Shown here piece after piece: positions 4,153-58,044 of a stretch of 64,000 nucleotides of DNA. Numbering within the stretch: the stretch's first letter is position 1; every line of letters begins with the position of its first letter. The position numbers and the translations under genes are program-made. Origin of the DNA: Bacteroidota bacterium (GTDB taxonomy: Bacteria > Bacteroidota > Bacteroidia > B-17B0 > Aurantibacillaceae); assembly GCA_013697245.1 (NCBI GenBank), contig JACCXH010000051.1:62001-126000 (forward strand). The letters are read 5' to 3'. Under the pieces are notes generated by a model. That model did not search any database. It was not told the origin of the DNA and worked only from the letters and a program-made list of their open reading frames with translations.

Positions 4153-4169
4153 TTTTTATTTAAACTGAA

Positions 4170-4219: not shown

Positions 4220-4230
4220 AACCCAAAGGC

Positions 4231-4583: not shown

Positions 4584-4807
4584 TTCGATAATTCCTTAAT
4601 GGCATCTTTATGCGACACAAAATTTCCTTTTTCAATACGGGCAATAGCTTCATTGATTTCTTTGTTATATTGTTTTCTGGAGATTCGTTTCGTGTCTTTG
4701 TCAACATTTAAAAAACTTTTTACCATTTCTAAAAGCAATGTTTGTTGCTTAGCAGATAATAATGGCAAATAGCTATCAAATTGTTTTTTTATGGCTGTAG
4801 CAGTCAT
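4577..4807 (-). CDS. antitoxin of the RelE/ParE pair
   Basis: The 76-residue protein precedes and overlaps the toxin gene by 7 bases. It is helical and charged, with QYNKEINEAIARIEKGNFVSHKDAIKELSKW at the C-terminus; the GNFVSHKDAIKEL part is typical of Bacteroidota antitoxins paired with RelE/ParE toxins. The N-terminal half (KQFDSYLPLLSAKQQTLLLEMV) probably provides dimerisation or DNA contact. It is expected to neutralise the toxin and repress the operon. Confidence 0.8.
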   Translation of the reverse strand: MTATAIKKQFDSYLPLLSAKQQTLLLEMVKSFLNVDKDTKRISRKQYNKEINEAIARIEKGNFVSHKDAIKELSKW

Positions 4808-4939
4808 TTATGTAATTTTTGTTACTCAAATTTACAAAAAAAGGAATTAAATTCAAAACTGTGGGTTACGTCATTCCAGAGAATTGCTTTTTAGAATGAG
4901 TTTTCGCTTTATGTGTTAATAAATTTTGCAAGTTAAATA

Positions 4940-7149: not shown

Positions 7150-8589
7150 TTAGTTGCTAATGCTTATCTTCTTTTCAAGTTCTTCGATATAAGCTTTAAA
7201 ACGCTTATCGGTATCCATTAAATTATTTACAGTACGGCAAGCGTGTAAAACTGTAGCGTGATCTTTGCCTCCGCAATGCATACCAATTGTAGCTAAAGAA
7301 GATTTGGTCATGCTTTTTGCAAAGTACATGGCAATTTGACGGGCCTGAACTACTTCGCGCTTGCGGGTCTTAGACTTCATTGTGTCTATTGCCAAATCAA
7401 AATAATCGCAAACCACTTTTTGGATATAATCAATAGATACCTCTCTTGCTGTGCTCTTCACAAATTTGTCGATCATTGTTTTGGCTAATTCCAAAGTGAT
7501 CGTTTTTTTGTTTAAGCTAGATTGGGCTAATAATGAAATTAAAGCACCTTCCAGTTCGCGAACGTTTGAGGTAATGCTGTAAGCTAAATATTCAATAACC
7601 TCTTTTGGAAGCTGAATGCCTTCGTTGTAAACTTTTTTCTCAAGGATAGCAATTCTGGTCTCTAAACCCGGAGCTTGAAGATCGGCACTAAGCCCCCATT
7701 TGAAACGAGATAACAAACGTTGTTCAATTCCTTGTATATCAACCGGTGGGCGATCAGATGTTAGAACGATCTGTTTACCTAATTGGTGTAAGTGATTAAA
7801 AATATGGAAGAACACATCCTGTGTTTTTTCTTTACCTGCAAAATACTGTACATCATCAATGATCAAGACATCTATCATTTGGTAAAAATGAACGAAATCG
7901 TTTTGGTTGTTATTTTTTATCGACTCAATAAATTGAGTGATGAATTTTTCTGACTGAACGTATAGAACGGTTTTGTTAGGGAAATTCTTTTTTACTTCAA
8001 TACCAATAGCTTGTGCTAAGTGAGTTTTACCTAAACCAACACCTCCGTAAAGTAATAATGGGTTAAAAGCGTTTCCGCCCGGTTTTTGTGCAACTGCAAA
8101 ACCGGCACTGCGTGCTAAACGGTTACAATCACCTTCTACCGAATTATCAAAACTGTAGTTAGGATTTAATTGCGATTCAACTTGTACCTTTTTTAAACCC
8201 GGAATTACAAATGGATTTTTAATTGGGTTTGAACCAATATCAATTGGCATTGATACCGAAGGATTTTTTAAATTAGTATTAATGTTTGGTAATTTAAAAG
8301 TAATTGGTGTTTCAGTTTTACCTGAAGCATTATCCATGATGATATTGTATTCTAATCTTCCTTCAGCGCCTAATTCTTTTTTAATTACTTTTTTAATTAA
8401 GGTAATATAATGTTCTTCAATCCATTCATAAAAAAACTGAGATGGAACTTGAATGGTTAAAACGTTATTTATTAATTTAATTGGCTTAATCGGGTCAAAC
8501 CATGTTTTAAAATTTTGAGGGCTAACATTGTCCTTTATTATTTCGAGACATCCATTCCAAATCTGTTCTGCAGTTTTCTCCTTCATCAT
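7150..8589 (-). CDS. dnaA: chromosomal replication initiator protein DnaA
   Basis: The 479-residue protein binds DnaA boxes at oriC and opens the duplex. Domain I (about 1-85) begins TAEQIWNGCLEIIKD; a short linker domain II follows to about 140. The AAA+ domain III has Walker A GGVGLGKT at 182-189, Walker B VLIIDDVQYF near 245 and the sensor LTSDRPP. The C-terminal domain IV carries the helix-turn-helix signature CGGKDHATVLHAC. Two Met codons open the frame; either could be used. The neighbours are not the classic dnaN-recF set, which is normal for Bacteroidota. No DnaA-box cluster is visible next to it. Confidence 0.97.
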   Translation of the reverse strand: MMKEKTAEQIWNGCLEIIKDNVSPQNFKTWFDPIKPIKLINNVLTIQVPSQFFYEWIEEHYITLIKKVIKKELGAEGRLEYNIIMDNASGKTETPITFKLPNINTNLKNPSVSMPIDIGSNPIKNPFVIPGLKKVQVESQLNPNYSFDNSVEGDCNRLARSAGFAVAQKPGGNAFNPLLLYGGVGLGKTHLAQAIGIEVKKNFPNKTVLYVQSEKFITQFIESIKNNNQNDFVHFYQMIDVLIIDDVQYFAGKEKTQDVFFHIFNHLHQLGKQIVLTSDRPPVDIQGIEQRLLSRFKWGLSADLQAPGLETRIAILEKKVYNEGIQLPKEVIEYLAYSITSNVRELEGALISLLAQSSLNKKTITLELAKTMIDKFVKSTAREVSIDYIQKVVCDYFDLAIDTMKSKTRKREVVQARQIAMYFAKSMTKSSLATIGMHCGGKDHATVLHACRTVNNLMDTDKRFKAYIEELEKKISISN

Positions 8590-8751
8590 TATAAAAAAAT
8601 TTAAATATTATGTAGTGTATAAAAGTAATTAACTTATTCGTGTTTGTAAATATAATGGGATTATTTGTCTTTGCAACAAAAAAACCGAAAAAAAAACTTA
8701 AGAAAATTTTCGTCTAAAACTTGCAGGATTAGTTTTTTTTTACATGGGCTT

Positions 8752-9693
8752 CTAAATCCTGATATTTTTGTTGTTTTGTAAGCTTTTTTTGTTATATGAA
8801 GAGAAGAGTATTTCTATCTTGCCCAGCCAAATACCTGCCCAGCCAACCTGCGTAATTTGAACTTCTTTGCCATTGCTATTTAAAACAATTTGTGGCGCCT
8901 CTAAAAACGTATGTGTATGACCACCAATTATCAGATCAATATTTTCAGAACGTCCGGCTAAAACCATATCTGAAACTTTAGTTGTATCGTATTTATAACC
9001 CAGGTGCGACAAGCATATCACGTAATCGCACTTTTCTTCATTCTTTAAAATAGAAGCAATTTTATTGGCATTTACAATTGGATCTTTGTAAATAATTCCT
9101 TTAGTGTATTTTATATCTACCAAATTTTCAAGGTCAATTCCTACTCCCAAAACTCCAATTTTTAAAGGACCTTTTTTATATATTTTATAAGGAGATATTT
9201 TTTTATTTTTTACCAGCGCAGTATCTTCAAAACCATAATTACAATTTATAAAATCAAAGTTTGCGTGAGGCATTTGCGTCACTATATTTTCACATCCAAG
9301 GTCAAAATCATGATTGCCAAAAGTTACAGCATCATACTGCATCAGGCTCATTAACTTGTATTCTATTTCGCCATGATAATAATTAAAATAGGGTGTGCCC
9401 TGAAAAATATCGCCGGCATCTAAAAGTAAAACATTTTTATCTTCCGCTCTTATTTTTTCGATGAGCGAAGCCCTTTTTGCAAAACCGCCTTCGCCGGCAT
9501 ATTTAGCATCGTTGTCAGGAAAAGGTTCTATTCTGCTGTGTTGATCGTTAGTATATAAAATAGTCAGTTTTGTAAAACCTTTTTCAAATAATAAATTATT
9601 TTGTGCATGACTGTTTAAGCCATAAATAGCTGCTGCCGAACCCAAAGTGAATTTTAAAAATTCGCGTCTATTTTGAAATTTGAAGTCGCCCAT
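8752..9693 (-). CDS. metallophosphatase, catalytic half of a split 5'-nucleotidase
   Basis: The 313-residue protein has a twin-arginine signal (NRREFLKF at 8-15, then a hydrophobic run to about 28), so it is probably exported by Tat. The UshA-type two-metal phosphoesterase motifs are all present: TNDQHSRIE (Asp50, His52), DAGD (Asp95), GNHDFDLG (Asn127, His128), a CLSHLG histidine and GGHTHTF. It should hydrolyse nucleotides or related phosphate esters in the periplasm. The substrate-binding C-terminal domain is missing and is encoded by the gene just upstream, which overlaps this one by 26 bases. Together they equal one classical 5'-nucleotidase. Confidence 0.88.
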   Translation of the reverse strand: MGDFKFQNRREFLKFTLGSAAAIYGLNSHAQNNLLFEKGFTKLTILYTNDQHSRIEPFPDNDAKYAGEGGFAKRASLIEKIRAEDKNVLLLDAGDIFQGTPYFNYYHGEIEYKLMSLMQYDAVTFGNHDFDLGCENIVTQMPHANFDFINCNYGFEDTALVKNKKISPYKIYKKGPLKIGVLGVGIDLENLVDIKYTKGIIYKDPIVNANKIASILKNEEKCDYVICLSHLGYKYDTTKVSDMVLAGRSENIDLIIGGHTHTFLEAPQIVLNSNGKEVQITQVGWAGIWLGKIEILFSSYNKKSLQNNKNIRI

Positions 9694-10408
9694 CTGTATA
9701 GGGTATAATTTGTTTTTTATTTTCGGTTAAATAATTACAGTAATTAATAAGTGCATCTCTGATCTTTAAACTACTTTTTTCTATGGCAACGGGAGCTTTT
9801 AAAAAGAGAAAATTATCGCCGCCATTGGCTAAATAATCACTTGTAACCACCGTATAAATTTTTGTTTTATCAATAAAACTACCATTAATAGTAGTTTCCA
9901 CAAGGGTGTTATTTTGAGCTTTTATTTTTAATCCCAAAAACGGATGTCTTTTTTCGAGAAGCGTTTGTAAAGCTTCAGTTAATTTTTCACCGGAAATTTT
10001 TACAAGAATAAGCTCATTCTCAAATGGCATTAGCTCAAAAATGTTGATGATCTTAATATCGCCTTTTGGTAAATTAACACGCAATCCTCCACGATTAAAT
10101 AATACAATATCTATAGGTAAATTTTTAAATTCTTTTTCGCCATTGTATTTTAAGGCATCACAAACAAAGTTCCCGAGTGGAGATTCTTCGGCATCTTTTA
10201 TGAGAATATCGTATGAAGACGCAATTACTTTTTTGGTCTCCGCATCTACTTTTATTTTATATTCCGCAATTGTGATCTTGGCATTTTCACTTTCGGGATC
10301 TTGTTTTAAAGAATAATGTGTAAAATCTGCTTTTTGTTTTAAATAGTTTTTTGAACAGGAAGAAATTATCAGAATGGATAAAAAAAGATATATAACTCTG
10401 GCTTTCAT
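9668..10408 (-). CDS. 5'-nucleotidase C-terminal domain lipoprotein
   Basis: The 246-residue protein is a lipoprotein (lipobox IISSC, Cys18) consisting of the 5_nucleotid_C domain alone. Diagnostic motifs are FNRGGLRVNLPKGDI, which contacts the nucleotide base in full-length enzymes, and SDYLANGGDNFLFL near the end. It lies upstream of the Tat-exported metallophosphatase gene and overlaps it by 26 bases, so translation is probably coupled. The two polypeptides likely assemble into one phosphatase held to the membrane by this partner's lipid anchor. Such splits occur in other Bacteroidota. Confidence 0.86.
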   Translation of the reverse strand: MKARVIYLFLSILIISSCSKNYLKQKADFTHYSLKQDPESENAKITIAEYKIKVDAETKKVIASSYDILIKDAEESPLGNFVCDALKYNGEKEFKNLPIDIVLFNRGGLRVNLPKGDIKIINIFELMPFENELILVKISGEKLTEALQTLLEKRHPFLGLKIKAQNNTLVETTINGSFIDKTKIYTVVTSDYLANGGDNFLFLKAPVAIEKSSLKIRDALINYCNYLTENKKQIIPYTDGRLQISK

Positions 10409-45048: not shown

Positions 45049-46968
45049 ATGGGAAAAATTATAGGAATAGATCTAGGAACCACCAATAGCTGTGTTTCGG
45101 TTATGGAAGGTAATGAAGCTGTGGTTATACCAAATAACGAGGGCAAACGCACAACCCCGTCTGTTGTTGCATTTGTAGAAGGTGGCGAACGTAAAGTGGG
45201 AGACCCGGCAAAACGCCAGGCAATTACAAACCCACGTAAAACCGTTTATTCAATTAAGCGTTTTATGGGCCATACTTTTGACGAGATAACAAGTGAGGCA
45301 GCCCGTATGCCATATAAAGTAATAAAAGGCGACAATAATACACCACGTGTAGAAATTGATGACCGTAAATATACACCTCAGGAAATTTCAGCAATCATTT
45401 TGCAAAAAATGAAAAAAACTGCCGAAGATTTTTTAGGTACAGAAGTAACAGAAGCAGTAATTACAGTACCCGCATACTTTAACGATGCGCAACGCCAGGC
45501 TACAAAAGAAGCCGGTGAAATTGCAGGTTTAAAAGTAAAACGTATCATTAACGAACCTACCGCTGCTGCTTTAGCTTACGGTATGGATAAAAAAGGAAAA
45601 GACATTAAATTAGTGGTGTTTGATTGTGGTGGAGGAACGCATGACGTGTCTGTTTTAGAATTAGGCGATGGTGTGTTTGAAGTAAAATCTACTGATGGTG
45701 ATACACACTTAGGTGGTGACGATTTTGATCAAGTAATTATTGATTGGTTAGCTGACGAATTTAAGAAAGATGAAGGCTTAGACTTACGTCAGGATCCAAT
45801 GGCTTTGCAACGTTTAAAAGAAGCTGCAGAAAAAGCAAAAATAGAATTATCAAGTTCAACCAGCACCGAAATTAATTTGCCATACATTATGCCGGTTAAT
45901 GGTATACCAAAACATTTGGTAAAAAACTTAACCCGTGCAAAATTCGAATCTTTAGCAGATAGTTTAATTCAACGTACTATTGAACCTTGCAGATCAGCAT
46001 TAAAAAATGCTGGCCTATCAACTTCAGAAGTAGATGAAATTATTTTAGTAGGAGGTTCAACACGTATACCTGCTGTGCAAGCTGCTGTAGAAAAATTCTT
46101 CGGCAAATCGCCAAACAAAGGTGTTAACCCTGATGAAGTGGTTGCTTTAGGTGCAGCAATACAAGGTGGTGTTTTAACCGGCGAAGTAAAAGATGTGTTG
46201 TTGTTAGATGTTACACCTTTATCATTAGGTATCGAAACAATGGGTGGTGTATTCACAAAATTAATTGAGTCGAACACAACCATACCAACAAAAAAATCGC
46301 AGGATTTTAGTACTGCTGCAGATAACCAACCTTCTGTACAGATTGTGGTGTATCAAGGTGAGCGCCCGATGGCACGTGATAACCGTAAGTTAGGTGAATT
46401 TAACTTAGATGGTTTACCACCTGCACAACGCGGTGTACCGCAAATTGAAGTTACTTTTGATATTGACGCCAATGGTATCTTAAATGTTAGCGCAAAAGAT
46501 AAAGCAACCGGTAAATCGCATAACATCCGTATTGAAGCTAAGAGTGGTTTAAGTCAGGAAGAGATAGAAAAAATGAAACGCGAAGCAGAAGCAAACGCCG
46601 ATTCAGATAAAAAAGCGAAAGAAGAAGTGGATAAATTGAACGAAGCAGATGCAATGATCTTTCAAACAGAAAAACAATTAAAAGAGTTTGGCGATAAAAT
46701 TCCTGCAGAGAAAAAAGCACCGATCGAAAATGCCTTAACAGAATTAAAAGCGGCACATGCATCAAAAGATGTAGAAAAAGTAACTACTGCTTTAGCTAGT
46801 ATAAATACATTATGGGCTGCCGCCAGCGAAGATATGTACAAAGCGCAGCAAAACGCAGGTGCAAACCAACAAAACAATACAGATCCAAATAACAATGGTG
46901 CACAAACAGACGCTAATAAAAGTAGCGGCGAAAATGTAACCGATGTTGATTTTGAAGAAGTAAAATAA
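45049..46968 (+). CDS. dnaK: chaperone DnaK (Hsp70)
   Basis: The 639-residue Hsp70 begins [20 protein letters not shown]. The ATPase domain includes [17 protein letters not shown] and [13 protein letters not shown]; the substrate domain includes [20 protein letters not shown]; the lid ends in a Gln/Asn-rich tail and [11 protein letters not shown], the terminal EEVK-type motif. Length is standard. DnaJ and GrpE genes are not adjacent. A short inverted repeat (GACA-GGT-TGTC) lies upstream at about 44960; no CIRCE element is visible. The secG gene follows by 16 bases and may be on the same transcript. Confidence 0.98.
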
Positions 46969-47277: not shown

Positions 47278-49602
47278 ATGAAAAAGATCCACCCCAGTAC
47301 TACCTTAGCCGTTGTTTTTAATATTGGCTCCATTATATGCCTGGCTTTGGGTTATACTTTACCGGCTTCCATACTATCCTTGTTGGCCTATTTTGCTTCC
47401 ATTAAAGAGGTCTCAAAATATACCAGCTGGTATCAATTTATTACTGTTTTTGTTTCTGCACTTTTAATTGGGACTTCTTTAGATCTACCATATAACCATT
47501 TTCCTTTCTTAACAATTGCACTATTAATTGCCGGCTTTGGTTCTATTTTACGGATCGTGTTCTTTACCACTTTTTCTTATACCGGTTATTCCTGGTTCGA
47601 GCCTTTAATGGTTGTATTAGGTTCTTGTGTTTACATTCTTGGTAATATATTTGTTTCATACGGTTGGCAGGGTTACGCATTTCCGCTACCCATATTATTA
47701 TTTGGTGCATTATTAGGTTGGGGAATTATAAAAGATAAAAAACAATTAAAGATCCATTCGGGTGGTTACCGCGTACAAATTGGCAAGCCGGCAAATGAGT
47801 TTGCTTTGCCCGATCAAAATGGAGAATTAGTAAAGCTCTCTGACTTTAAAGATAAACGACATTTATTATTGATCTTTGTGAGGGGCGATTGGTGCCCGGG
47901 TTGCCACATGATGTTGCGCACCTACGAAAAGAACAATGCTAAATTTCAGGAAAAGAATATTTTGGTAATGGCTATTGGCCCCGATCCGGTTGGTGTTAAT
48001 CGCGGTATGGTAGAGAAATTAGGCTTGGATTTTAAAGTGCTTGCTGATGAAGGGCAACGTACTGCTATGGTATATGGCGTTCAGTTAAAAGAATATGATA
48101 ATGATTTTGCTGAAAAATACGAAGAAGGCATTCCATTACCCGCTTCTTTTTTAATTGATAAGACCGGTGTTGTGCGCTATGTTTCACGTCCGGATAAAGT
48201 AGGGGAGTTCTTAAATCCTTCTTTAATTTTCCCGATCATTGAAGAGTTAGACGGAAAGTATAAAACGTCTAAAGATATATTAAAGGAAAATGAGGCGTTA
48301 AAAGACACTTCTTTTAAAAAAACATCTACAAGCGAAGAGTCAAAAAATCAAGAAGAGACTATTGATTCATTAAAAAAACAATTAAGTAATTACGAAAGTA
48401 TTATCGACCAGGCTAATGATGCTATGATGGTAATTGATATTGTGGATGGAAAGATCCACCAAAGCAATCCCAGCGCAGGTAAATTATTAGAATATAACAA
48501 AGAAGAATTAGAAAAACTTTCGTTATTTGATCTTCATCCAAAAGAGTTTCTCGAAAAAAGCTCAAGTATTGTAGCTGATGTATGGGAAAAAGGTGGTTTA
48601 ATTTATAAAGACATTCCTTTTAAAACCAAATCAGGAAATTTAATTCCTGTTGAGTGCTCTGCTAAAGTTGCGCCTTTTGCGGGTCGTCCGGCAATTGTAA
48701 TTTACGCGCGTGATATAACAGAACGGTTACGATTAGAAAAGGAGATCAATGAACAACGAAAAGAGATAGATGAAAAGAATAAAGATATTTCTGATAGTAT
48801 CGAATATTCAAAACGTATTCAGCAATCTATTTTTATTGAAAAAGATAAATTAAAACAATATGCGCCTGATTCTTTCATATTTTTTAAACCACGCGATGTA
48901 GTAAGCGGTGATTTTTATTGGTTCACGAATTACGATATAAAAGAAGATCTTCATTCTACCGACGGTTACCATTATAAGGCCGGAACAAATATTTTAGTAA
49001 TAGCTGCTGTAGATTGCACGGGGCATGGCGTTCCGGGCGCCTTTATGAGTATCATTGGCAATACCTTATTAAATCAAACCTTAAATAATCTGGCTGTTGA
49101 TTCGGCGGGCAAAGCTTTGGATTATGTGAATTGGGAATTGAAGAAAAGTTTAAATAAAAATAATAACGAAACGCCATTGCGCGACGGAATGGATATGGCG
49201 CTTTGCTGTATTGATATTAAAGGTATGCGTTTGGAATATGCTGGTGCAAATAACCCTGTATACATTGTAAGAAATAAAGAGTTGATTGAGTTTAAAGCAG
49301 ATAAACAACCCATCACAGCGTCTATGGATTCGGTAGCAAAACCTTTTACCAATAAATTATTCGACCTTCAAAAAGGCGATATCATTTATTTATTTACCGA
49401 TGGTTATGCTGATCAGTTTGGTGGTTCAAATATTGAAAATGGCGGAAAGAAATTTTTATACAAACGCTTTAAAGAAACTTTGATAGATATGCACGACCAA
49501 ACAATGGAAGAACAAAAAACCACTTTGTATAATACTTTCGAAAAATGGCGTGGTTCTCTATCGCAGGTAGATGATGTGCTTGTTATTGGCATTAAAATTT
49601 AA
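47278..49602 (+). CDS. membrane redoxin-PAS-SpoIIE phosphatase fusion
   Basis: The 774-residue protein joins four parts. Residues 1-152 hold five or six membrane helices. Residues 165-320 are a thioredoxin-like peroxiredoxin domain (GKPANEFALPDQNGELVKLS, WCPGC at 205-209, PASFLIDKTGVVRYV). After a coiled coil comes a PAS domain at about 375-485 (YESIIDQANDAMMVIDI, DITERLRLE). A second coiled coil leads to a SpoIIE/PP2C phosphatase at 525-774 (FKPRDVVSGDFYWF, AVDCTGHGVPGAFMS, LFTDGYADQFGG). It probably senses redox state or a ligand and dephosphorylates a Ser/Thr target such as an anti-sigma antagonist. The redoxin input fused to SpoIIE is unusual. Confidence 0.88.
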   Translation: MKKIHPSTTLAVVFNIGSIICLALGYTLPASILSLLAYFASIKEVSKYTSWYQFITVFVSALLIGTSLDLPYNHFPFLTIALLIAGFGSILRIVFFTTFSYTGYSWFEPLMVVLGSCVYILGNIFVSYGWQGYAFPLPILLFGALLGWGIIKDKKQLKIHSGGYRVQIGKPANEFALPDQNGELVKLSDFKDKRHLLLIFVRGDWCPGCHMMLRTYEKNNAKFQEKNILVMAIGPDPVGVNRGMVEKLGLDFKVLADEGQRTAMVYGVQLKEYDNDFAEKYEEGIPLPASFLIDKTGVVRYVSRPDKVGEFLNPSLIFPIIEELDGKYKTSKDILKENEALKDTSFKKTSTSEESKNQEETIDSLKKQLSNYESIIDQANDAMMVIDIVDGKIHQSNPSAGKLLEYNKEELEKLSLFDLHPKEFLEKSSSIVADVWEKGGLIYKDIPFKTKSGNLIPVECSAKVAPFAGRPAIVIYARDITERLRLEKEINEQRKEIDEKNKDISDSIEYSKRIQQSIFIEKDKLKQYAPDSFIFFKPRDVVSGDFYWFTNYDIKEDLHSTDGYHYKAGTNILVIAAVDCTGHGVPGAFMSIIGNTLLNQTLNNLAVDSAGKALDYVNWELKKSLNKNNNETPLRDGMDMALCCIDIKGMRLEYAGANNPVYIVRNKELIEFKADKQPITASMDSVAKPFTNKLFDLQKGDIIYLFTDGYADQFGGSNIENGGKKFLYKRFKETLIDMHDQTMEEQKTTLYNTFEKWRGSLSQVDDVLVIGIKI

Positions 49603-49608
49603 GATCTC

Positions 49609-50949
49609 TTGAAAGAAAAACTCCCAATTGGTAAACAAATTGCTTATGCTTTTGGCATGATGGGTTGGAGTATTATGATCAACCTTATAGGCGTAATTTT
49701 AATTTATTTATATATCCCGCCGGATAATAGTGGTTTACCTAAATTTATTACGCAGGTTGCTATATTAGGTGTATTTAATGTTATAGCTATTGTTACCTCA
49801 AGCACAAGATTGATAGATGCTGTGTATGACCCTTTAATTGCACAATTCAGCGATAGTAGCAAAAACCCTAAAGGTAGAAGGATCCCCTTAATGAAACTGG
49901 CCATTATTCCGTCTCTTATTTTTTGTTGCCTGGTTTTTTACCCCTTGCGTGACGAAGAATGTACTTTAAATATTGTTTGGTTGGTTTTTATGCTAATAGG
50001 CTTTTATGTTTCTTCTACAACTTATATTATTCCTTACAATGCTTTATTGCCTGAATTGGCGCCTACCTCAGAAGATAAAGTACGTTTGGCTACCTGGCAA
50101 TCTGTTGGTTATGTATTTGGAATAGGAATTGCTTCTAATGCATTTAATTTAACGGAAGTTATGCAACATAGTTTTGGTGTAGATTCAAAAATTCATGCTT
50201 TGCAAATAACAATTTTTTTATTCGCTGTGTTAGCAGCAATTTTTATGTTAATAACAGTTTTAACGATTGATGAAAAAAAATACTGCACCTCTGTTCCAAG
50301 TTCTGTTCCTTTAAAGCAAGCTTTGATCCAAACATTAAGCAATAAGAACTTTCTGTTCTTTATTGTGGCAGATTTCTCTTATTTTATCTCTATCACACTT
50401 ATCACTTCGGGGTTAATGTTTTTTGTAAAAGTTCTTTTGCAGTTACCGGAAAGTATTGGGAATAAATTAATGATCACAATGGTTTTGGTGTCTTTTATTT
50501 TTTATCCTGTTACAAACTGGGCGGCAAAAAAAGTGGGTAAGAAAAAAATAGTTATTGGTTCTTTAATACTGCTTAGCTGTATTTTTCTTGGGATCTTTAT
50601 GTTGGGAAAATTTGCCGTAAATGCTGAAGTTCAGATCTTTTCCTTGATCGCTTTGGCAGCAATTCCACTAGCATCACTTAATATTTTACCGGTTGCTATT
50701 TTGGCCGAAGTTATTGAAAAAGATAGCCGGGAAACAAAACAAAACAAAGAAGCTATTTACTTTGCAGTACGTTATTTTTTTGTAAAGATCTCGCAAACAG
50801 TGGGCATTGCCTTATTTTCAATGTCGCTGTTATATGGTAAAGATGTTGGAAATGATTTAGGGATCCGTTTAAATGGAATTCTTGGTTTTGTATTATGCCT
50901 TTTAGCAGCAATAATTTTTACGAAGTTTAAGGAAAATAAAACTATTTAA
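49609..50949 (+). CDS. MFS_2/GPH-type membrane transporter
   Basis: The 446-residue protein starts at a TTG 6 bases after the phosphatase gene's stop. It has about twelve hydrophobic helices and MFS_2 landmarks: SSTRLIDAVYDPLIAQFSD, KGRRIPLMKLA, YVSSTTYIIPYNALLPELAP and YFAVRYFFVKISQ. The family includes melibiose-type sugar symporters and MFSD2A-like lysolipid transporters. It is convergent with the lipid-modification operon, so a lipid substrate is an attractive guess, but sugar transport cannot be excluded. Confidence 0.85.
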   Translation: MKEKLPIGKQIAYAFGMMGWSIMINLIGVILIYLYIPPDNSGLPKFITQVAILGVFNVIAIVTSSTRLIDAVYDPLIAQFSDSSKNPKGRRIPLMKLAIIPSLIFCCLVFYPLRDEECTLNIVWLVFMLIGFYVSSTTYIIPYNALLPELAPTSEDKVRLATWQSVGYVFGIGIASNAFNLTEVMQHSFGVDSKIHALQITIFLFAVLAAIFMLITVLTIDEKKYCTSVPSSVPLKQALIQTLSNKNFLFFIVADFSYFISITLITSGLMFFVKVLLQLPESIGNKLMITMVLVSFIFYPVTNWAAKKVGKKKIVIGSLILLSCIFLGIFMLGKFAVNAEVQIFSLIALAAIPLASLNILPVAILAEVIEKDSRETKQNKEAIYFAVRYFFVKISQTVGIALFSMSLLYGKDVGNDLGIRLNGILGFVLCLLAAIIFTKFKENKTI

Positions 50950-51000
50950 GGTCTAAAAGCTAATATTTCGTACCATAAGTACGATATATTTCAGATTAAT

Positions 51001-52239
51001 TTACCGTCCCGTATTATTCGGTCTTGTATAAACCAATTGCATCACATTAATGTTGCGCATAGCAAAAGCTGCTTCGCAATAACACAAATAATAATTCCAT
51101 TTACGGATAAAATAATCGTCAAATTCTAGTGCTTTAACTTTATCAATATTTTTATTGAATTCCTGGTGCCAGATCTTTAAGGTGTGCGCGTAATCTAAAC
51201 CAATATCTTTTAGATCAACTAAGGTGAGATCGCAGGTCTCGTTAATAGACTTGTTTATAGCCGCTACCGAAGGCAATAAAGAGCCCGGGAAAATATGTTT
51301 CTGGATCCAATCTACGCCATTCTTTAAACTTTCAAAACGTGAATCAGGACAAGTAATTACCTGGATCGCAAAAATGCCGTTCTTCTTTAAAAGATCGCTA
51401 CATTTTTTAAAGTAGGTATTATAAAATTCAGCGCCCACAGCTTCCAACATTTCAATAGATACGATCTTATCAAATTTACCAGTCATTTGCCTGTAATCCT
51501 TTATTAATACAGTTATTTTGTCGGACAGATTTTCTTTTTCAATGCTTTCTTTTGCCAGTTTATATTGTTCTTCAGATATGGTTAATGTAGTTACATTACA
51601 ACCATAGGTCTTTGCCATGTAAATAGCGTTGCCGCCCCAGCCGCTGCCAATTTCAAGCACATGATCGTGTGGTTGTAAATTTAATTGTTTGCACAAACGA
51701 TCGTATTTTGCTAACTGCGCTTCTTTTAAGGTCATGCCTTCTTTTTTAAAATAAGCAGAAGAGTAAGTCATGGTATCATCTAAAAATAACGCAAAAAACT
51801 CATTGTTGAGGTCGTAATGTGCTGAGATGTTTTTTTTAGAACCTGTAAGACTATTTGCTCTTTTTAAATGATATAATTTATTGGCAATTTTAAAAACGTT
51901 TAGAGTAAGGCTTTTTGTGTTACTGCCGGAAGCGGTAGGTGCTTTATCTACATTTAGTAAGAACCATTTGATGACATTAGTAATATTATCAGTATCCCAT
52001 TCACCATCGGTATAAGATTCTCCAAAACCAATGTCGCCATATAAAACACAGCGTTTAAAAAAATTAGGGTCATTAATTTCTATATTTGCCTGTAATTTAT
52101 TTTCTCCATTACCGATCTTAATTAAATGGCCGTTAGGCAAAGTAAGGTTAAGCGTGCCCAATTGCATTTTAGAAAGTAAATCTAAAATTACTTTCTCGTA
52201 AAATCCTTGTTTTGTTATAGTGCTAGCAGCAGTTGACAT
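51001..52239 (-). CDS. cyclopropane-fatty-acyl-phospholipid synthase family methyltransferase
   Basis: The 412-residue protein has the CFA synthase layout. The N-terminal lipid-binding part includes NPNFFKRCVLYGDIGFGESYTDGEWDT-like phrases; then DLNNEFFALFLDDTMTYSSAYF, the SAM motif VLEIGSGWGGNAIYMA, SIEMLEAVG and KHIFPGSLLPSV. CFA enzymes methylate double bonds of membrane phospholipid acyl chains. It is the last gene of a minus-strand operon with DUF1365, an FAD oxidase-like protein, a hydrolase, a CNMT-like methyltransferase and DUF1295. Whether the product is cyclopropane, methyl-branched or a furan precursor cannot be told from sequence. Confidence 0.93.
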   Translation of the reverse strand: MSTAASTITKQGFYEKVILDLLSKMQLGTLNLTLPNGHLIKIGNGENKLQANIEINDPNFFKRCVLYGDIGFGESYTDGEWDTDNITNVIKWFLLNVDKAPTASGSNTKSLTLNVFKIANKLYHLKRANSLTGSKKNISAHYDLNNEFFALFLDDTMTYSSAYFKKEGMTLKEAQLAKYDRLCKQLNLQPHDHVLEIGSGWGGNAIYMAKTYGCNVTTLTISEEQYKLAKESIEKENLSDKITVLIKDYRQMTGKFDKIVSIEMLEAVGAEFYNTYFKKCSDLLKKNGIFAIQVITCPDSRFESLKNGVDWIQKHIFPGSLLPSVAAINKSINETCDLTLVDLKDIGLDYAHTLKIWHQEFNKNIDKVKALEFDDYFIRKWNYYLCYCEAAFAMRNINVMQLVYTRPNNTGR

Positions 52240-52309
52240 TTTTCTTATTACGAATTTAAGAATATTAACCTAAAAATAGACGAATTTTCTCAGTAATCCT
52301 TACATTTTT

Positions 52310-53107
52310 TTAATCGTTTTTATATTTACGAAAAACTTCCTTTTGCAGATGTGATTTTTCGGATTTTTTGTGATAGGGTACCTTTTTAAACCACAATAGC
52401 ATGGCATTCCAATGAATTAAGGTAATTATTTTAAGCGTAATGAAGGGGAAACGGATACTATACCAAAGTAAATTTAGGTTAGTTATTGGTTTTTGAACCC
52501 CGGTTAACGTGCTTATAAAAATACGTTCACCTTCTTTAAAAGTATCTATTCTGTTATTTAATTTTTTACCCGGAACACTAAGAGTAAAATCAAAATTGGC
52601 ATCATGGTCCATAAATGGCGAAACATAAAAATATTTTTCTGTATTTAAATGAAAGATGTCGATGTTTAAATTTTCGTTCGTTAATAAATAAGGCTTCATT
52701 TCTTTAAAGGTATTGCTCACTTCGGCAATGCAGCAGATCGGTTCATTTTTTTTATCAAAACAATAATAAAAAGAGACGGGGTTAAAATTATATCCCAATA
52801 CATTTAAATTGGTAAGTAACATTATTTTTGTAGGAACAGTTTTAATGTCGTTTTGTTCAAGATAGTTTAAAATATGTTGTTTTGTTGTTTTACTTTTGTC
52901 AGGATTCTCAATTGGCAATTGTAAATGTTCATTATCTCTGAAACTAAAAAAATTGAATTTATTATGACTAAAAAAGAATAATTTCTTGCTAAGGCTTTCA
53001 ATTTCATCCAGATCGATATAGAACATAAATACATTGTAGTTGAACCTGTGGGATGTAGGTTTCATGCGATTGTGCATAACAAGAGATCTATATAAACAGC
53101 TATTCAC
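52310..53107 (-). CDS. DUF1365 protein
   Basis: The 265-residue protein starts at a GTG with NSCLYRSLVMHNRMKPTSHRFNYNVFMFYIDLDEI, and later has LTNLNVLGYNFNPVSFYYCF and EVSNTF. This is the DUF1365 pattern (YxGxVxHxRxxPxxHxFxYxxf, GyxFNPvsfyyc). The His-rich start suggests a metal or cofactor site. DUF1365 genes lie between an FAD amine-oxidase-like gene and CFA synthase in many proteobacteria, as they do here apart from the insertion of repeats. It is thought to take part in modified fatty-acid synthesis, with no proven reaction that I can name. Confidence 0.93.
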   Translation of the reverse strand: MNSCLYRSLVMHNRMKPTSHRFNYNVFMFYIDLDEIESLSKKLFFFSHNKFNFFSFRDNEHLQLPIENPDKSKTTKQHILNYLEQNDIKTVPTKIMLLTNLNVLGYNFNPVSFYYCFDKKNEPICCIAEVSNTFKEMKPYLLTNENLNIDIFHLNTEKYFYVSPFMDHDANFDFTLSVPGKKLNNRIDTFKEGERIFISTLTGVQKPITNLNLLWYSIRFPFITLKIITLIHWNAMLLWFKKVPYHKKSEKSHLQKEVFRKYKND

Positions 53108-53120
53108 TACGAAATACTAA

Positions 53121-53281
53121 TTAGTACGAATATACGAATCGAACCGCGAAGTTTTACGAATCTTAATGCTAATCTGCGAAAAGTAATTATTACGAATATA
53201 CGAATCGAACCGCCAAGCTTTACGCTATTCACTATGAATTACGAATATGTATGAATTTACGAATTGAACCGCTAAAGCTAT
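53121..53281. repeat. tandem-like TACGAATATACGAATCGAACCGC repeats
   Basis: Three degenerate units of about 37 bases start near 53121, 53188 and 53247 (spacing about 65 bases). Each contains TACGAAT heptamers followed by GAA(C/T)CGAACCGC-like sequence and AAG(C/T)TTTACG. They belong to the same heptamer family as the hairpin cluster at 3.1 kb. They lie between the DUF1365 start and a dead GxxExxY gene. Confidence 0.7.
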
Positions 53282-53305
53282 AAGGGTTTTTCGCGAAATT
53301 CAATA

Positions 53306-53706
53306 TTATTTTTGTTCAATATTGACAAGTCTTTTGCTTATAATTCCTTTTGCAGAGAAATTAATTAGCAATGCCAGTTGTAATTTGCTTGATAAAAAAT
53401 ATTGGTTTACCTGGTCAATATTAGATTTTGCAAAACGGTCGTTCTTTTTTAGCTCAATAATTATTTTGTCTTCAACTAAAAAGCCGAGATATAGCTTTCC
53501 AACAAGTTCACTTTGAAATTTAAGAGGCGCATAAAACTATTCTTTAAAATTCAAACCTGCGTTTTTGAGAGCTATTGCCATAGCTTTTTGATAATACTTT
53601 TCGGCATGACCAAAACCTAATTCAGTGAATACCTAAAATACAAAGCCTATTATTTATAACTTAATTCAGGATAAACCAGATCATCTCTTTTAAGTTTGAT
53701 TTCCAT
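53306..53706 (-). pseudogene. GxxExxY-family protein pseudogene
   Basis: Starting at an ATG (53706), the frame reads MEIKLKRDDLVYPELSYK and stops. After a frameshift it continues GFVF-stop-VFTELGFGHAEKYYQKA, then NFKE-stop-FYAPLKFQSELVGKLYLGF, VEDKIIIELKKNDRFAKSN and SSKLQLALLINFSAKGII to a final TAA at 53306. These are the clear hallmarks of GxxExxY proteins (about 130 residues, nuclease-like fold, unknown role). One frameshift and two in-frame TAG codons kill it. It interrupts the spacing between DUF1365 and the FAD oxidase-like gene and is flanked on both sides by TACGAAT-type repeats. Confidence 0.82.
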
Positions 53707-53754
53707 AACACTAAGATAACTGTTTAATTTTATTCTCTGCTGCTATGATTTGTA

Positions 53755-53850
53755 GTTTCGTGTTAATTCGTAAACCCAGTTTCGCTCATTCGTAATTAAT
53801 TCACATATCGTAAAACCAGATTTGTGGATTGTATTTAATTCGTATTTCTT
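53755..53850. repeat. ATTCGTA repeats, right flank of the GxxExxY pseudogene
   Basis: Degenerate ATTCGTA/TTCGT heptamers recur (TTCGTGTTAATTCGTAAACC, CATTCGTAATTAATTC, TTAATTCGTATTTC). They mirror the repeats on the other flank at 53.1-53.3 kb and run into the 3' end of the FAD oxidase-like gene. Confidence 0.5.
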
Positions 53851-55097
53851 AACAAGTGTTCACATAATACTACAGCGCTTGCGTAGGCGTCTTCATGAAA
53901 GCCGTATTTAAAATAACTTCCACAATAATATAATGGGCCTTTTTCATTTAATGTTTGTAATTCTTTTTGCGCGTTAATGGCTGGTACATCAAATAAAGGA
54001 TGCTCGTAATTTATTTCTTTTAAAATTTTTGCTTTAGCCACAGTTCCGGGAATGGCGTTGATGGAAACAAAATAATTTTTCTTTTTAGAAACTCCCTGTA
54101 ATCGGTTCATCCAGTATATAGTGGTTGGGATCTGTTCACCATTTCTTTCTTCGATTCTGTAATTCCAACTGCTCCAGATTGCCTTGTTCTTTGGCATTGT
54201 GGATTCATCTGTATGAACTGTTGCACTATTTTTTTGGTATTTAAACGTACCTAATAATCTTTTTTCTTCAGCACTTGGTTGGTCTAACAACGTTAAGGTC
54301 TCATCTGCATGCGAGGCAAAAATAACTTTATCAAATTCTTTTGATGTACCATCTTTTAAAAATACAATTGCTTTACCAGTATTAGTACGACTTACTTTTA
54401 CTGCACCATTATTAATATGGACCTTGTCTTTAAATGGTTTAATTAAAATTTCACGATAGGCTTGACTACCATTTGCCAGAGTGTACCATTGATGTTGTGT
54501 ATTTAAACCTAAAAAGCCATGGTTCTTAAAAAAACGAATAAGTGCAACGGCAGGAAAATCCAACATCTTGTCCATTGGCGTGCTCCATACTGCAGAGCTC
54601 ATTGGTACCAAATATTTCCACAGCACTTCTTCGCTGAAATTAAATTCTTTTATGTACTGTGCCAGCGAATGGTTCTCGTATTTTGGATTATCTAGGATCT
54701 CAACACTTATTTTGTTAAAGCGTGTGATCTCCATTAACATCTTGATGTATTTAATATTGAATAAATTTTTTCGTTGTGCAAATAAACCGTTAATGCCTGA
54801 GCCGCAATATTCCAGGCTACTGGGCCTATGTTGCACGCTAAACGACATTTCTGTTTTTTTGATCGGCGCTTTTATTTCATCAAATAATTGGCAGAGCTTA
54901 GGGTAGGTTTCAAAGTTAAATACCATAAAACCGGTATCCATAAAAACCTGTTCGCCATCTTCGTCAGTAGAAAAAGTATTGGTATGTCCTCCAATATAAT
55001 CGTTCTGCTCATACAAAGTGATATCATATTGCGTGTGTAACAAATGCCCACAACCCATTCCTGCAATACCTGTTCCTATGATCGCTACTGTTTGCAT
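53835..55097 (-). CDS. FAD-dependent amine-oxidase-like oxidoreductase
   Basis: The 420-residue flavoprotein starts MQTVAIIGTGIAGMGCGHLL with an FAD-binding GTGIAGMG, followed by LYEQNDYIGGHTNTFS (the acidic ribose-binding residue and GGH motif) and VFASHADETLTLLDQPSAEE. The C-terminal part YYCGSYFKYGFHEDAYASAVVLCEHLL is the family's closing FAD contact. Relatives in DUF1365/CFA clusters are annotated as NAD/FAD-binding or amine oxidase proteins and are thought to desaturate or oxidise methylated acyl chains. Its ATG overlaps the preceding stop by one base (TAATG), so translation is coupled to the hydrolase. Confidence 0.9.
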   Translation of the reverse strand: MQTVAIIGTGIAGMGCGHLLHTQYDITLYEQNDYIGGHTNTFSTDEDGEQVFMDTGFMVFNFETYPKLCQLFDEIKAPIKKTEMSFSVQHRPSSLEYCGSGINGLFAQRKNLFNIKYIKMLMEITRFNKISVEILDNPKYENHSLAQYIKEFNFSEEVLWKYLVPMSSAVWSTPMDKMLDFPAVALIRFFKNHGFLGLNTQHQWYTLANGSQAYREILIKPFKDKVHINNGAVKVSRTNTGKAIVFLKDGTSKEFDKVIFASHADETLTLLDQPSAEEKRLLGTFKYQKNSATVHTDESTMPKNKAIWSSWNYRIEERNGEQIPTTIYWMNRLQGVSKKKNYFVSINAIPGTVAKAKILKEINYEHPLFDVPAINAQKELQTLNEKGPLYYCGSYFKYGFHEDAYASAVVLCEHLLRNTN

Positions 55098-56227
55098 TAA
55101 CGTGTTACTGAGTTTAAAAAACGTTCTATTGCAAAAGTGCTTATCTGGCCGCTTGGCCCGTTAATATTATAATCGCAGCCATGTGTAGCCCATGGCAGGT
55201 TTAAAAAATAATGCGGCACTTTATTATCTTCTAATTTCTTATCTAAGCGTATGCTGTGTTCATATGCAACCATTGCATCATGCTCTCCATGAATGATCAG
55301 CGTTGGTGTGGAGTTTTCGGTAACATGATCCACCGCACCGGCTTCATTATATTTTTGCGGAACTTCATCAATAAGTCCACCTAAATAATCTTTAAACACT
55401 TTGTCTGTATTTAATACTAACGGGTTTCCTTTTATTCTTGCACCCCAAACCATATCGGCGGGAGCGTAAAAAGAAATTACACCTTTAATATTTGGTGTAT
55501 TTAAAGTATAAGCAGCACATAAAGCAATTTGCCCCCCTGCAGAACGGCCTAATAAAACAAAGTTTGAAGTATCGATCTTGAATTTCTCTGAATTAGCTAT
55601 AAGATAGTTTATAACATCGGTAACATCTTCAACCGGTGCAGGTGATTTATATTTTGGCGCTAAACGATAATTAATCGCTGCAACATGATAACCTTTGGCT
55701 GCTAAATAACTATTCAGGTCAGGTAATTGTTTACTGTCACCTTCGGCCCAGGACCCGCCATGTATAACAATTACACAGGGCGATACAGAGTTTTTTTGTG
55801 AAGGGAAAAGATCAATATTAAGATCTCTTTCAGGTAATTTTTTATAGGCCAAAATTTGTGGTGTAATTTTTTTCGGATTAATGCCGGAAAACATTTTAAA
55901 AAAAGAGTAGGGTTGATGTAATTGTTGCTCGTCTTCTTTAAAAGGGAATTTTTTTTTGAGATCTTCCGCCAAATTATTTCCGCGCAAATATACCTGGATA
56001 ATAGGCAGTATATAAATTAAAGTACTAAGACTACTTAATGATAAAACTGCAGTTTTGTATTTATTTGCTTTTAAGCACACAAAGAAAAAGAAGAGCGAAG
56101 CAAGTACAAAAATGTAAGGAAATTCAGTGATGGCTACTGATACGCGCCACAAAAAATTGGTTGGCGCTCTAAAGAAGACCATTAATGATAATAAAAAAAG
56201 GAGAACGGCTACAATCAAACGCCACAT
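55097..56227 (-). CDS. membrane-anchored alpha/beta-hydrolase (esterase/lipase type)
   Basis: The 376-residue protein begins with three hydrophobic helices in residues 1-90 (LIVAVLLFLLSLMVFF and later segments), followed by a hormone-sensitive-lipase-like alpha/beta-hydrolase domain. The oxyanion motif is HGGSWAEGD, the nucleophile is the Ser in GRSAGGQIAL, the acid lies in IIHGEHDAMV and the last His in ATHGCDYN. It probably hydrolyses a lipid ester at the membrane. In this operon it might release or recycle modified acyl chains; that is inference. It starts 5 bases after the CNMT-like gene's stop. Confidence 0.88.
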   Translation of the reverse strand: MWRLIVAVLLFLLSLMVFFRAPTNFLWRVSVAITEFPYIFVLASLFFFFVCLKANKYKTAVLSLSSLSTLIYILPIIQVYLRGNNLAEDLKKKFPFKEDEQQLHQPYSFFKMFSGINPKKITPQILAYKKLPERDLNIDLFPSQKNSVSPCVIVIHGGSWAEGDSKQLPDLNSYLAAKGYHVAAINYRLAPKYKSPAPVEDVTDVINYLIANSEKFKIDTSNFVLLGRSAGGQIALCAAYTLNTPNIKGVISFYAPADMVWGARIKGNPLVLNTDKVFKDYLGGLIDEVPQKYNEAGAVDHVTENSTPTLIIHGEHDAMVAYEHSIRLDKKLEDNKVPHYFLNLPWATHGCDYNINGPSGQISTFAIERFLNSVTR

Positions 56228-56232
56228 AGTTT

Positions 56233-57261
56233 TTACTTCTTAATAAATAAATAATGACTAACTATCCATTCTTCGCCATTGTTATAATTCCATAATTCTG
56301 CGCAGGCCATATAAAATATGCGCCAGTACACCCACCATTTTATAGCATTTTCTTTGCCATAGGTTTGTTCGAACAAAGGAATTATTTTGGCTCTGTGTGT
56401 ATCCATATTTTGCAGCCAGGCCTCTGAGGTCTTGCTATAATGATTACCACTTAAGTGCCAGTGTTTTTGAATATTTAAATGCTCATTAAAATAAAGTAAA
56501 AGATCATCGCTTGGCATAATGCCGCCTGTAAAAAAATATTTACTCATCCAATCGCTATCGTCTTTCACTTCAAACTTATATGCAAATTCTTTATGCGTAA
56601 AAATATGTACGAATAATTTTCCATTAGGTTTTAAAAGTGTTGCTACTTTGTGCATGAGTTTTTGATAATTACGCATGTGCTCAAACATTTCTACAGAAAC
56701 TACTCTGTCAAAAGTTTTATCTAAAGTAAAATCGTTTATATTAATAGTAATAACTGTAAGATTATTAATGTTTCTTTGTTTGGCCTGCTCATCAATATAA
56801 ATCTTTTGCGTTCGGGAATTAGAAACAACCGTAAAATTACTTTTTGGAAATTTTGCTGCCATAAACAATGAAAGCGATCCCCAGCCGCAACCCAACTCTA
56901 ATACATCCTGCCCGTCTTGTAATTCTGCACGTTGGCATGTCAATTCCAACATGTCTTTTTCAGATGTGTCGATATCCGTTACACCTTCATTCCAGTAGCC
57001 ACTGCTATATTTTAAATTTTTCCCTAAACAATATTGGTAAAATTGAGTAGGAACTTCGTAATGCTGTTCGTTTGCTTCTTGTGTATTAACTGCAATTGGC
57101 GATGCTTTTAATTCTGCTATCAATTCCATTAAATGCGCTTGCTGTGCTTCCGTATTTCCTTTGTCCTCATCCTGTAAACGCTGCTTTAATAATTTACGGA
57201 TACCAATACGTATAAGAGAATCGGGAAGTTTATCTTTTTCGAGTAATTTATCGTAAAACAT
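56233..57261 (-). CDS. CFA/coclaurine-N-methyltransferase-like SAM methyltransferase
   Basis: The 342-residue enzyme belongs to the CFA-synthase superfamily, but to the branch resembling plant coclaurine N-methyltransferases. Features are NEQHYEVPTQFYQYCLGKNLKYSSGYW, the SAM motif VLELGCGWGSLSLFMA, VSVEMFEHMRNY and DWMSKYFFTGGIMPSDDLL. It differs clearly from the other CFA-type enzyme in this operon, so the two likely act on different substrates or steps. Bacterial CNMT-like proteins commonly lie beside DUF1295, DUF1365 and photolyase genes. It starts 3 bases after the DUF1295 stop. Confidence 0.9.
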   Translation of the reverse strand: MFYDKLLEKDKLPDSLIRIGIRKLLKQRLQDEDKGNTEAQQAHLMELIAELKASPIAVNTQEANEQHYEVPTQFYQYCLGKNLKYSSGYWNEGVTDIDTSEKDMLELTCQRAELQDGQDVLELGCGWGSLSLFMAAKFPKSNFTVVSNSRTQKIYIDEQAKQRNINNLTVITININDFTLDKTFDRVVSVEMFEHMRNYQKLMHKVATLLKPNGKLFVHIFTHKEFAYKFEVKDDSDWMSKYFFTGGIMPSDDLLLYFNEHLNIQKHWHLSGNHYSKTSEAWLQNMDTHRAKIIPLFEQTYGKENAIKWWVYWRIFYMACAELWNYNNGEEWIVSHYLFIKK

Positions 57262-57264
57262 ATT

Positions 57265-58044
57265 TTATTTCTTTTTGAACCACGGAACAAATACGCTTGT
57301 GGTGCGCTGGTATTCTTTGTATGCTTCGCCTCTGCTTCTAACAGCCTGTTCTTCGGTCATAGGAATGCCTGTTACCTTAAAAAGTAAATAACCTATTGAT
57401 AAAGGACATATTGCCGAGATCCAGCCATAAGGACTTGGTAAAGCGAAAATTAAAACTGAGATCCAGAGAGAAAATTGAAAAAAGTAATTTGGGTGACGGG
57501 AATAATTCCACAATCCAAACTCACACACTTTGCCTTTTAAAGTATTGTGTTTTTTAAAATATTGTAATTGCCAGTCCGAAACGCCTTCGCCAACGATACA
57601 TATAAACCATAAACCGGCGCCAATGTATTCGATCATGGAGATTTCAGTTGCAGGATTAAGTGCAATGATAAAAAACGGCAATGCTAACATCACATTCGAA
57701 AACGCCTGCATTTGAAAAAAGAAAAAGAACTTAGTATCATTCCACTCTAAACGTAATTGTTTGTAACGGCCTTCCTCTTCTTTAATATGTCCACCAACAC
57801 GTATCAATAAATAAATACCCAATCGTAAACTCCATAACCCTGCTAACGCGCAAACTAAATTTTTTCTTTCAGAATTACCGTCCGCTAAATACAATATAAT
57901 ACCTGCAATAACAGTAAAGTTAAATGCCCAAAAAATATCTACAATACCATTGTTCTTGATCTTTAATGCCCAGAACCAAATAATGACCATGATAACAGCC
58001 ACTACTACCCAGGAAATTAAAGGAATTGAAAGGTAATTGCTCAT
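57265..58044 (-). CDS. DUF1295 membrane protein (steroid 5-alpha-reductase-like)
   Basis: The 259-residue protein has about six membrane helices and the DUF1295 signature: FWALKIKNNGIVDIFWAFNF, LRLGIYLLIRVGGHIKEEEGRY, FGLWNYSRHPNYFFQFSLWI and TEEQAVRSRGEAYKEYQR. The C-terminal NYSRHPNYF motif is shared with steroid reductases and isoprenylcysteine methyltransferases and probably binds NADPH or a lipid. It is the first gene of the lipid-modification operon and could reduce a double bond of the modified chain. The precise reaction is unknown. Confidence 0.93.
   Translation of the reverse strand: MSNYLSIPLISWVVVAVIMVIIWFWALKIKNNGIVDIFWAFNFTVIAGIILYLADGNSERKNLVCALAGLWSLRLGIYLLIRVGGHIKEEEGRYKQLRLEWNDTKFFFFFQMQAFSNVMLALPFFIIALNPATEISMIEYIGAGLWFICIVGEGVSDWQLQYFKKHNTLKGKVCEFGLWNYSRHPNYFFQFSLWISVLIFALPSPYGWISAICPLSIGYLLFKVTGIPMTEEQAVRSRGEAYKEYQRTTSVFVPWFKKK

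Follow-up and report, generated by a model that had tools for sequence, protein, structure and literature searches.

We have shown here, in a 64,000-nucleotide stretch of a Bacteroidota genome (contig JACCXH010000051.1; hereafter the window, within which all positions are numbered), the presence, order, conservation and phylogenetic placement of a six-gene operon on the minus strand that very probably holds a complete gene set for making methylated furan fatty acids on membrane phospholipids. A dimethyl furan fatty acid, a known class of compound, is the likeliest product, because a UfaM-UfaD-UfaO core is joined by a second methyltransferase lying in the clade of the presumed FufM enzyme. The chemistry itself was shown by others in alphaproteobacteria; by analogy the Bacteroidota enzymes would carry out the same reactions, and their substrate chain is assigned in the same way. 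We hold the pathway with high confidence and the roles of the accessory genes with low confidence. Furan fatty acids are antioxidant lipids of fish, plants and some bacteria, and the operon would extend them to a phylum from which they may be unreported, in that among the listed papers naming both furan fatty acids and Bacteroidota-type taxa no title points to such a report. An original prediction made from the sequence alone had read the region as an operon for lipid modification, akin to the furan or branched fatty acid genes of Rhodobacter, with six minus-strand genes and a convergent MFS_2 transporter. All of these genes are present, and the relationship stands, as the core belongs to the UfaM, UfaD and UfaO families. 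The operon genes are as follows.

57265 to 58044, minus strand: DUF1295 membrane protein (PF06966, E 2e-60; PF02544, Steroid_dh, E 4.5e-7)
56233 to 57261, minus strand: FufM-like, coclaurine N-methyltransferase (CNMT)-like S-adenosylmethionine-dependent methyltransferase of 342 amino acids, candidate furan-ring methylase (CMAS-type; best PDB match 6gkv); hereafter methyltransferase 2
55097 to 56227, minus strand: alpha/beta hydrolase (BD-FAE / Abhydrolase_3 by Pfam) with a hydrophobic N-terminal part, accessory
53835 to 55097, minus strand: predicted UfaD-like flavin adenine dinucleotide (FAD)-dependent acyl desaturase (PF01593, amine-oxidase-like)
52310 to 53107, minus strand: UfaO-like DUF1365 protein, candidate O2-dependent furan-forming enzyme (PF07103, E 4e-73, 246 bits)
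51001 to 52239, minus strand: putative UfaM-like acyl methyltransferase of the cyclopropane fatty acid (CFA) superfamily, 412 amino acids (CMAS-type; assigned by clade and motif)

UfaM, UfaD (with a NAD/FAD-binding domain) and UfaO (DUF1365) are needed for the mono-methyl furan fatty acid 9M5-FuFA, which is made on phospholipids, and the Rhodopseudomonas palustris set of these three is sufficient for it (Lemke 2020, PMC7380195). Compared with R. palustris JSC-3b, the window's FAD protein is UfaD-like (35% identity over 420 columns, E 5e-92, to a protein encoded beside the JSC-3b DUF1365 gene), the DUF1365 protein is UfaO-like (31%) and the CFA-type protein is UfaM-like (39%). In a methyltransferase tree of 50 rows, the 412-residue protein falls in a UfaM clade with R. 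palustris UfaM (support 98/94), separate from E. coli CFA and from other Rhodopseudomonas and Bradyrhizobium CFA proteins. Its motif, SIEMLEAV, is of the form found in all 21 UfaM rows ([SA]IEM[LIF]EAV), and differs from those of the CFA rows (S[VI]GM[FL]EHV, 6/6) and the methyltransferase 2 rows (S[VI]EMFEH[MV], 23/23). Tree position and motif, the CFA class of which is defined on six rows, rule out a cyclopropane synthase; the label "CFA synthase" used in the original prediction is wrong because the motif is UfaM-type. The same placement and EAV motif count against a methyl-branched or cyclopropane fatty acid operon in which no furan is formed. The occurrence of two CFA-superfamily enzymes would fit such an operon, but a UfaM gene is also present in 38 of 40 same-phylum loci selected solely by DUF1365, and we regard this reading as very improbable. 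The core FAD, DUF1365 and CFA-type genes can instead be matched with high confidence, by sequence relationship, to the UfaD-UfaO-UfaM furan fatty acid pathway. In work on Halomonas, a UfaM gene was detectable in E. coli by an 11-methyloctadec-12-enoate peak (PMC12089945). No solved relative of the DUF1365 protein was found by sequence at E up to 1. Its structural model (predicted local distance difference test, pLDDT, 88.5) gave weak matches, the best rows being mostly calycin-type barrels (3bdr, OlmO, nitrobindin) at Z 5-6.5; this match strength is below a meaningful level, and so no mechanism is drawn from the model.

The second ring methyl is assigned through FufM. The R. palustris enzyme FufM (RPA0924) methylates 9M5-FuFA to the dimethyl 9D5-FuFA in vivo and in vitro, and fufM alone is enough for dimethyl furan in R. 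sphaeroides cells making 9M5-FuFA (PMC7380195). Methyltransferase 2 of the window is 43% identical to a CNMT-like protein of R. palustris JSC-3b, itself encoded beside DUF1295, and the two form one clade with support of 100/100 in the 50-row tree. Each of the 16 Rhodopseudomonas genomes searched has a CMAS match of methyltransferase 2 size and score, and in six of them (G536, which is JSC-3b, G539, G543, G545, G548 and G550) the sole other strong CMAS gene is a UfaM gene beside DUF1365, so that FufM is most simply the CNMT-like protein. In G541 and G543 the CNMT-like gene maps 19-20% of the way along the chromosome. This position fits RPA0924 if, as we take it, the name denotes gene 924 of about 4,800. 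Methyltransferase 2 thus shares a clade with the protein presumed to be R. palustris FufM and is a candidate for the enzyme that adds the second ring methyl. Linkage was surveyed in the 80 best matches listed in genome contigs for a methyltransferase 2 alignment, which sample the Alphaproteobacteria because they were ranked against an alphaproteobacterial sequence; among these best 80 loci the FAD protein is present in 57, DUF1365 in 56 and UfaM in 36.

The CNMT-like label given to methyltransferase 2 by the original prediction is apt: its best match among PDB sequences is a coclaurine N-methyltransferase (281 bits over the full length, the best cyclopropane synthase scoring 101 bits), and all ten solved sequences above 200 bits carry N-methyltransferase names. 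These names would suit an enzyme acting on nitrogen, with an amine head group or an alkaloid-like amine as methyl acceptor in place of the furan ring. We consider this very improbable, because the C-methylation by FufM has been characterised (PMC7380195), the Arabidopsis protein LIME1/AtFUFM1, 38% identical to FufM, has been placed with furan genes (PMC10940516), and methyltransferase 2 is linked to ufaD and ufaO in two phyla.

In the pathway that we favour, a cis-unsaturated acyl chain, probably from an aerobic desaturase, would be methylated by UfaM, and UfaD would convert the product to a methylated conjugated diene. UfaO would then add O2-derived oxygen with closure of the furan ring, and the FufM-like enzyme would put on a second ring methyl to give the dimethyl furan fatty acid. 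The desaturase homologue of the window's genome (61% identity) is encoded away from the operon, on contig C6; in 21 of the 40 same-phylum loci a desaturase gene (PF00487, one copy scanned) is linked to the operon and has the same orientation. The position of the ring follows from that of the substrate double bond, and it may be different here, given that the acyl chains and desaturase positions of Bacteroidota may not be the same. It is accordingly possible, if somewhat unlikely, that the same pathway has another end product, an undescribed furan-related lipid whose ring is elsewhere or on a branched chain, or which arises by DUF1295 reducing an intermediate. Two observations fit this: among proteobacterial loci an operon-linked desaturase was found by profile in Acinetobacter only, and DUF1295, predicted to have a reductase-type fold, has no role in the published pathway. 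However, DUF1295 is seemingly unneeded for the known product because fufM alone sufficed for dimethyl furan in R. sphaeroides (PMC7380195), and the enzyme clades are shared with those of alphaproteobacteria. The original prediction had raised a modified lipid not yet described for the phylum as a possible end product; an undescribed lipid is not required, and we expect a dimethyl furan fatty acid.

Conservation across the phylum was assessed by searching for DUF1365 in 395 genomes spanning the phylum and in 150 nearer relatives, the window's own genome being counted in both samples. DUF1365 is present in 11 and 34 of these, respectively, and the own genome holds a single copy, the only one found. 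The neighbourhoods of 40 of the 43 non-own matches were fetched (G417, G432 and G518 were left out), some of them cut by contig ends, and gene presence was scored with profiles built in this analysis. The 40 loci, representing 13 family codes, contain the FAD gene in 39 cases, UfaM in 38, methyltransferase 2 in 37, DUF1295 in 35, MFS_2 in 24, the desaturase in 21 and the hydrolase in 16. The placing of the window in Bacteroidota agrees with a neighbouring aminotransferase, whose three best plasmid matches come from Phocaeicola, Bacteroides and Prevotella at 57% while the five rows after them are below 48%. Five core genes (DUF1295, methyltransferase 2, FAD, DUF1365 and UfaM) share one arrangement, in both order and strand, in 29 of the 40 loci and in 8 family codes, and hence the operon is real and conserved and not a chance neighbourhood. 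The full six-gene order is found in 14 loci, 12 of which belong to the window's own family. In one group (L055-L058) DUF1295 is divergent and 1.6-2.7 kb off. The original prediction had proposed a neighbourhood survey of this kind as a check, and chance adjacency is refuted by it. The scarcity of DUF1365 in the phylum-wide sample (11/395) could be cited for chance neighbours; set against the five-gene order and the similar set on proteobacterial plasmids, that explanation is of negligible probability.

A new observation concerns DUF1295, a conserved and usual neighbour of the FufM-like gene that has no role in the published pathway. It lies within 300 bp of the FufM-like gene on the same strand in 66 of the best 80 loci listed, 14 of the 80 being without DUF1295 by profile, and in 29 of the 40 same-phylum loci. 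Because DUF1295 adjoins the CNMT-like gene in all five Rhodopseudomonas loci inspected (L146, L155, L247, L248 and L250), RPA0923 is probably DUF1295. By sequence, the only match to a solved structure was at E 0.85. An AlphaFold model built from 56 sequences (pLDDT 94.7) was compared with known structures using VIA-align and Foldseek. VIA-align placed first the steroid 5-alpha-reductase PbSRD5A (7c83; Z 16.0, root-mean-square deviation 3.8, 211 residues aligned) and a delta14-sterol reductase (4quv; Z 15.8, root-mean-square deviation 4.7, 240 aligned), both just 11-13% identical to DUF1295, followed by steroid 5-alpha-reductase 2 (Z 13.6), ICMT-type methyltransferases (11.9-12.9) and one Ycf2-FtsHi chain (12.6), after which values were at most 6.6. 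Foldseek listed the same entries first, none at E <0.001 (7c83: E 0.10, probability 1.00, TM 0.54). The predicted fold of DUF1295 is thus that of the steroid 5-alpha-reductase/sterol reductase/ICMT group. A shared fold is no proof of function, as methyltransferases share it; from the model, DUF1295 may be a reductase that serves the pathway. In Chlamydomonas, the singlet-oxygen-induced, SAK1-dependent genes include CFA1, CFA2, DUF1365 and DUF1295, and CFA2 is named coclaurine N-methyltransferase in another table of the same paper (PMC4067076); among the listed papers that name DUF1295, we judged this the only relevant one by title and start of abstract. The compact operon described here gives DUF1295 a place as a widely conserved partner with a predicted fold.

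The three core enzyme families are shared with R. sphaeroides (Cereibacter) ufaM-ufaD-ufaO and R. palustris RPA2569-2571 (PMC7380195), the window's UfaM gene sharing a clade with UfaM of R. palustris relatives. The window differs from both species in having one operon that includes the FufM-like gene and DUF1295, with an extra hydrolase, a convergent transporter and a redoxin-PAS-SpoIIE gene. RSP1089 of R. sphaeroides is presumably also an MFS transporter. The FufM gene, although in the same CNMT-like clade as the window protein (43% identity to Rhodopseudomonas homologues), stands apart from the furan genes in R. palustris, whereas the FufM-like gene of the window is linked to them.

Closer counterparts are found on proteobacterial plasmids, for which six records were opened among the plasmid hits. 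Like the window, the plasmids of Acinetobacter sp. SH20PTE14, Caballeronia sp. NK8, Mesorhizobium terrae and Cupriavidus sp. USMAHM13 carry FAD, DUF1365, CFA-type, DUF1295 and CNMT-like genes, joined in Acinetobacter by a desaturase; partial sets occur in Shinella and Rhizobium. They differ from the window in gene order and, in Caballeronia and Mesorhizobium, in having sigma and anti-sigma genes, which also occur in the Shinella and Rhizobium clusters; a photolyase is near in Acinetobacter and Cupriavidus. In the tree, Acinetobacter UfaM is sister to Bacteroidota UfaM (97/94) and Acinetobacter methyltransferase 2 is near the Bacteroidota ones (88/88). The M. terrae cluster has an esterase, a second methyltransferase and DUF1295, and its hydrolase, beside DUF1295, is a BD-FAE protein of the same Pfam family as the window hydrolase. 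The suggestion that a Bacteroidota version had added an esterase and a second methyltransferase is thereby ruled out, FufM having in any case already been characterised (PMC7380195).

Within the window the genes are closely spaced at the DUF1295 end, with gaps of 3 bp between DUF1295 and methyltransferase 2 and 5 bp between methyltransferase 2 and the hydrolase, and a 1-bp overlap between the hydrolase and FAD genes. The original prediction of gaps of 3-5 bases or overlap, apart from a GxxExxY insertion, is borne out for these three and fails for DUF1365 and UfaM, which are 70 bp apart. The remaining gap, of 727 bp between the FAD and DUF1365 genes, holds the broken GxxExxY gene. This and two further features on the opposite strand are as follows.

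53306 to 53706, minus strand: broken GxxExxY gene (PDDEXK_3) in the ufaD-ufaO gap, located by tblastn with the protein of the relative L064
49609 to 50949, plus strand: MFS_2 (GPH-type) transporter by Pfam, convergent on the operon
47278 to 49602, plus strand: AhpC/TSA redoxin-PAS-SpoIIE protein, candidate sensor/regulator, ending 6 bp upstream of the transporter gene

The L064 query is an open GxxExxY copy of 133 amino acids (PDDEXK_3), and its tblastn matches in the window are fragments spread over two frames and interrupted by in-frame stops. The remnant is followed by a repeated attcgta-type sequence, and relatives have open copies or none at the same place. A weak GxxExxY match (51 bits) adjoins ubiE in L281.

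Several points weigh against the pathway assignment. Because the broken gene and 727 bp split ufaD from ufaO, the operon may not be a single transcript. A Bacteroidota promoter consensus has no match in 47278-58044; the whole window contains 7 matches with 7.3 expected, which is not above chance, and the consensus was rejected as evidence. The window proteins share 31-43% identity, a moderate level, with those of R. palustris JSC-3b. The probable equation of RPA0924 with the CNMT-like protein, the simplest one, is reached by elimination and map position. One Rhodopseudomonas genome (G547) has a methyltransferase 2-like gene and no DUF1365, so the two are not always together. Finally, a scan of 20 of the 89 proteins listed as neighbours of the same-phylum operons showed no ECF sigma/ChrR pair of the kind that controls the R. 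sphaeroides genes, the rest of the window's genome not having been searched. Apart from the glutathione peroxidase of L066 and the TetR, ketoacyl-synthase and short-chain dehydrogenase genes of L053, described below, these 20 neighbours showed no link to light or oxidative stress, and operon neighbours were rejected as a sign of either.

The transporter and redoxin-PAS-SpoIIE genes belong to the same unit as the operon, as seen from relatives that lack it. The ubiE region was fetched for 17 of 20 same-genus genomes without DUF1365, and in four of the 17 the homologue of the gene at 45049-46968 comes after the ubiE side, the other 13 having other neighbours or being cut. This homologue is directly next in L279 and L281, with one open reading frame between in L278 (at a contig end) and two in L277. 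Since the ubiE side meets the 45049-46968 gene, the empty site lacks the operon as well as the MFS_2 and redoxin-PAS-SpoIIE genes; elsewhere in these four genomes the operon and MFS_2 have no strong match and the redoxin-PAS-SpoIIE protein has partial matches only. The unit is therefore larger than the 49609-58044 originally described, starting at 47278 and including both genes.

Within the genus, all 19 operon-bearing genomes have the MFS_2 gene, against 2/20 operon-free ones (unadjusted Fisher p 3e-9), and the redoxin-PAS-SpoIIE protein is found in 17/19 and 2/20 (p 5e-7), G396 and G417 being the operon-bearing genomes without it. The exceptions among operon-free genomes are G405 and G421, which have both genes without DUF1365, the redoxin gene of G421 being split with stops. 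On a UbiE+RfaE tree there are five independent supported pairs, of which three change the same way for the transporter, 2-3 for the redoxin protein and none the opposite way (sign test p at least 0.25). With only five such pairs and this p value, co-occurrence with the operon is suggestive and not proven. The redoxin gene is cut, split, partial or interrupted by a stop in five of the 17 genomes (G397, G410, G422, G424 and G432), and is on a different contig from the operon in nine of the 17; these assemblies are broken, so the distance is unproven. In some relatives (G410, G424, G421 and G422) the halves of the protein are separate or stops are present. The MFS_2 gene is oriented towards the operon in 24 of the 40 same-phylum loci, at distances of -11 to 3,095 bp, and its protein has no solved relative by sequence at E up to 0.001.

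The transporter, hydrolase and redoxin-PAS-SpoIIE protein may serve in transport or release of the product, or in sensing it or its oxidation state, a suggestion that we make with low confidence. More tentatively, and with little expectation that it is right, the system might be a renewable antioxidant equipped with a sensor of its own. The furan would be opened to reactive ene-diones by singlet oxygen or peroxyl radicals, DUF1295 would reduce the enones, and the redoxin-PAS-SpoIIE protein would sense the oxidation state and switch the pathway, replacing sigma-E/ChrR. In bacteria whose control of the pathway may do without sigma-E/ChrR, this protein is a candidate for the redox sensor.

Some variation of the locus was also observed. 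In L077 (G422; 8270-10311), of the same genus, DUF1365 and UfaM alone were found and the redoxin-PAS-SpoIIE gene of the lineage has a stop; this locus may represent decay of the pathway. In 6 of the 40 loci (L055, L056, L057, L058, L066 and L049) a protein of about 240 amino acids, with no Pfam match in the one copy scanned, is encoded between the methyltransferase 2 and FAD genes. A DUF2062 gene follows UfaM in 5 loci, and in 10 the gene for a DUF1475 protein lies ahead of DUF1295 or methyltransferase 2. Two loci from other families of the phylum have further neighbours: in L066 a glutathione peroxidase gene (3443-4006) is directly downstream of UfaM, and in L053 genes for a TetR-type regulator, a ketoacyl synthase and a short-chain dehydrogenase (2343-5159) lie divergently upstream of the start of a desaturase-DUF1475-DUF1295 operon.

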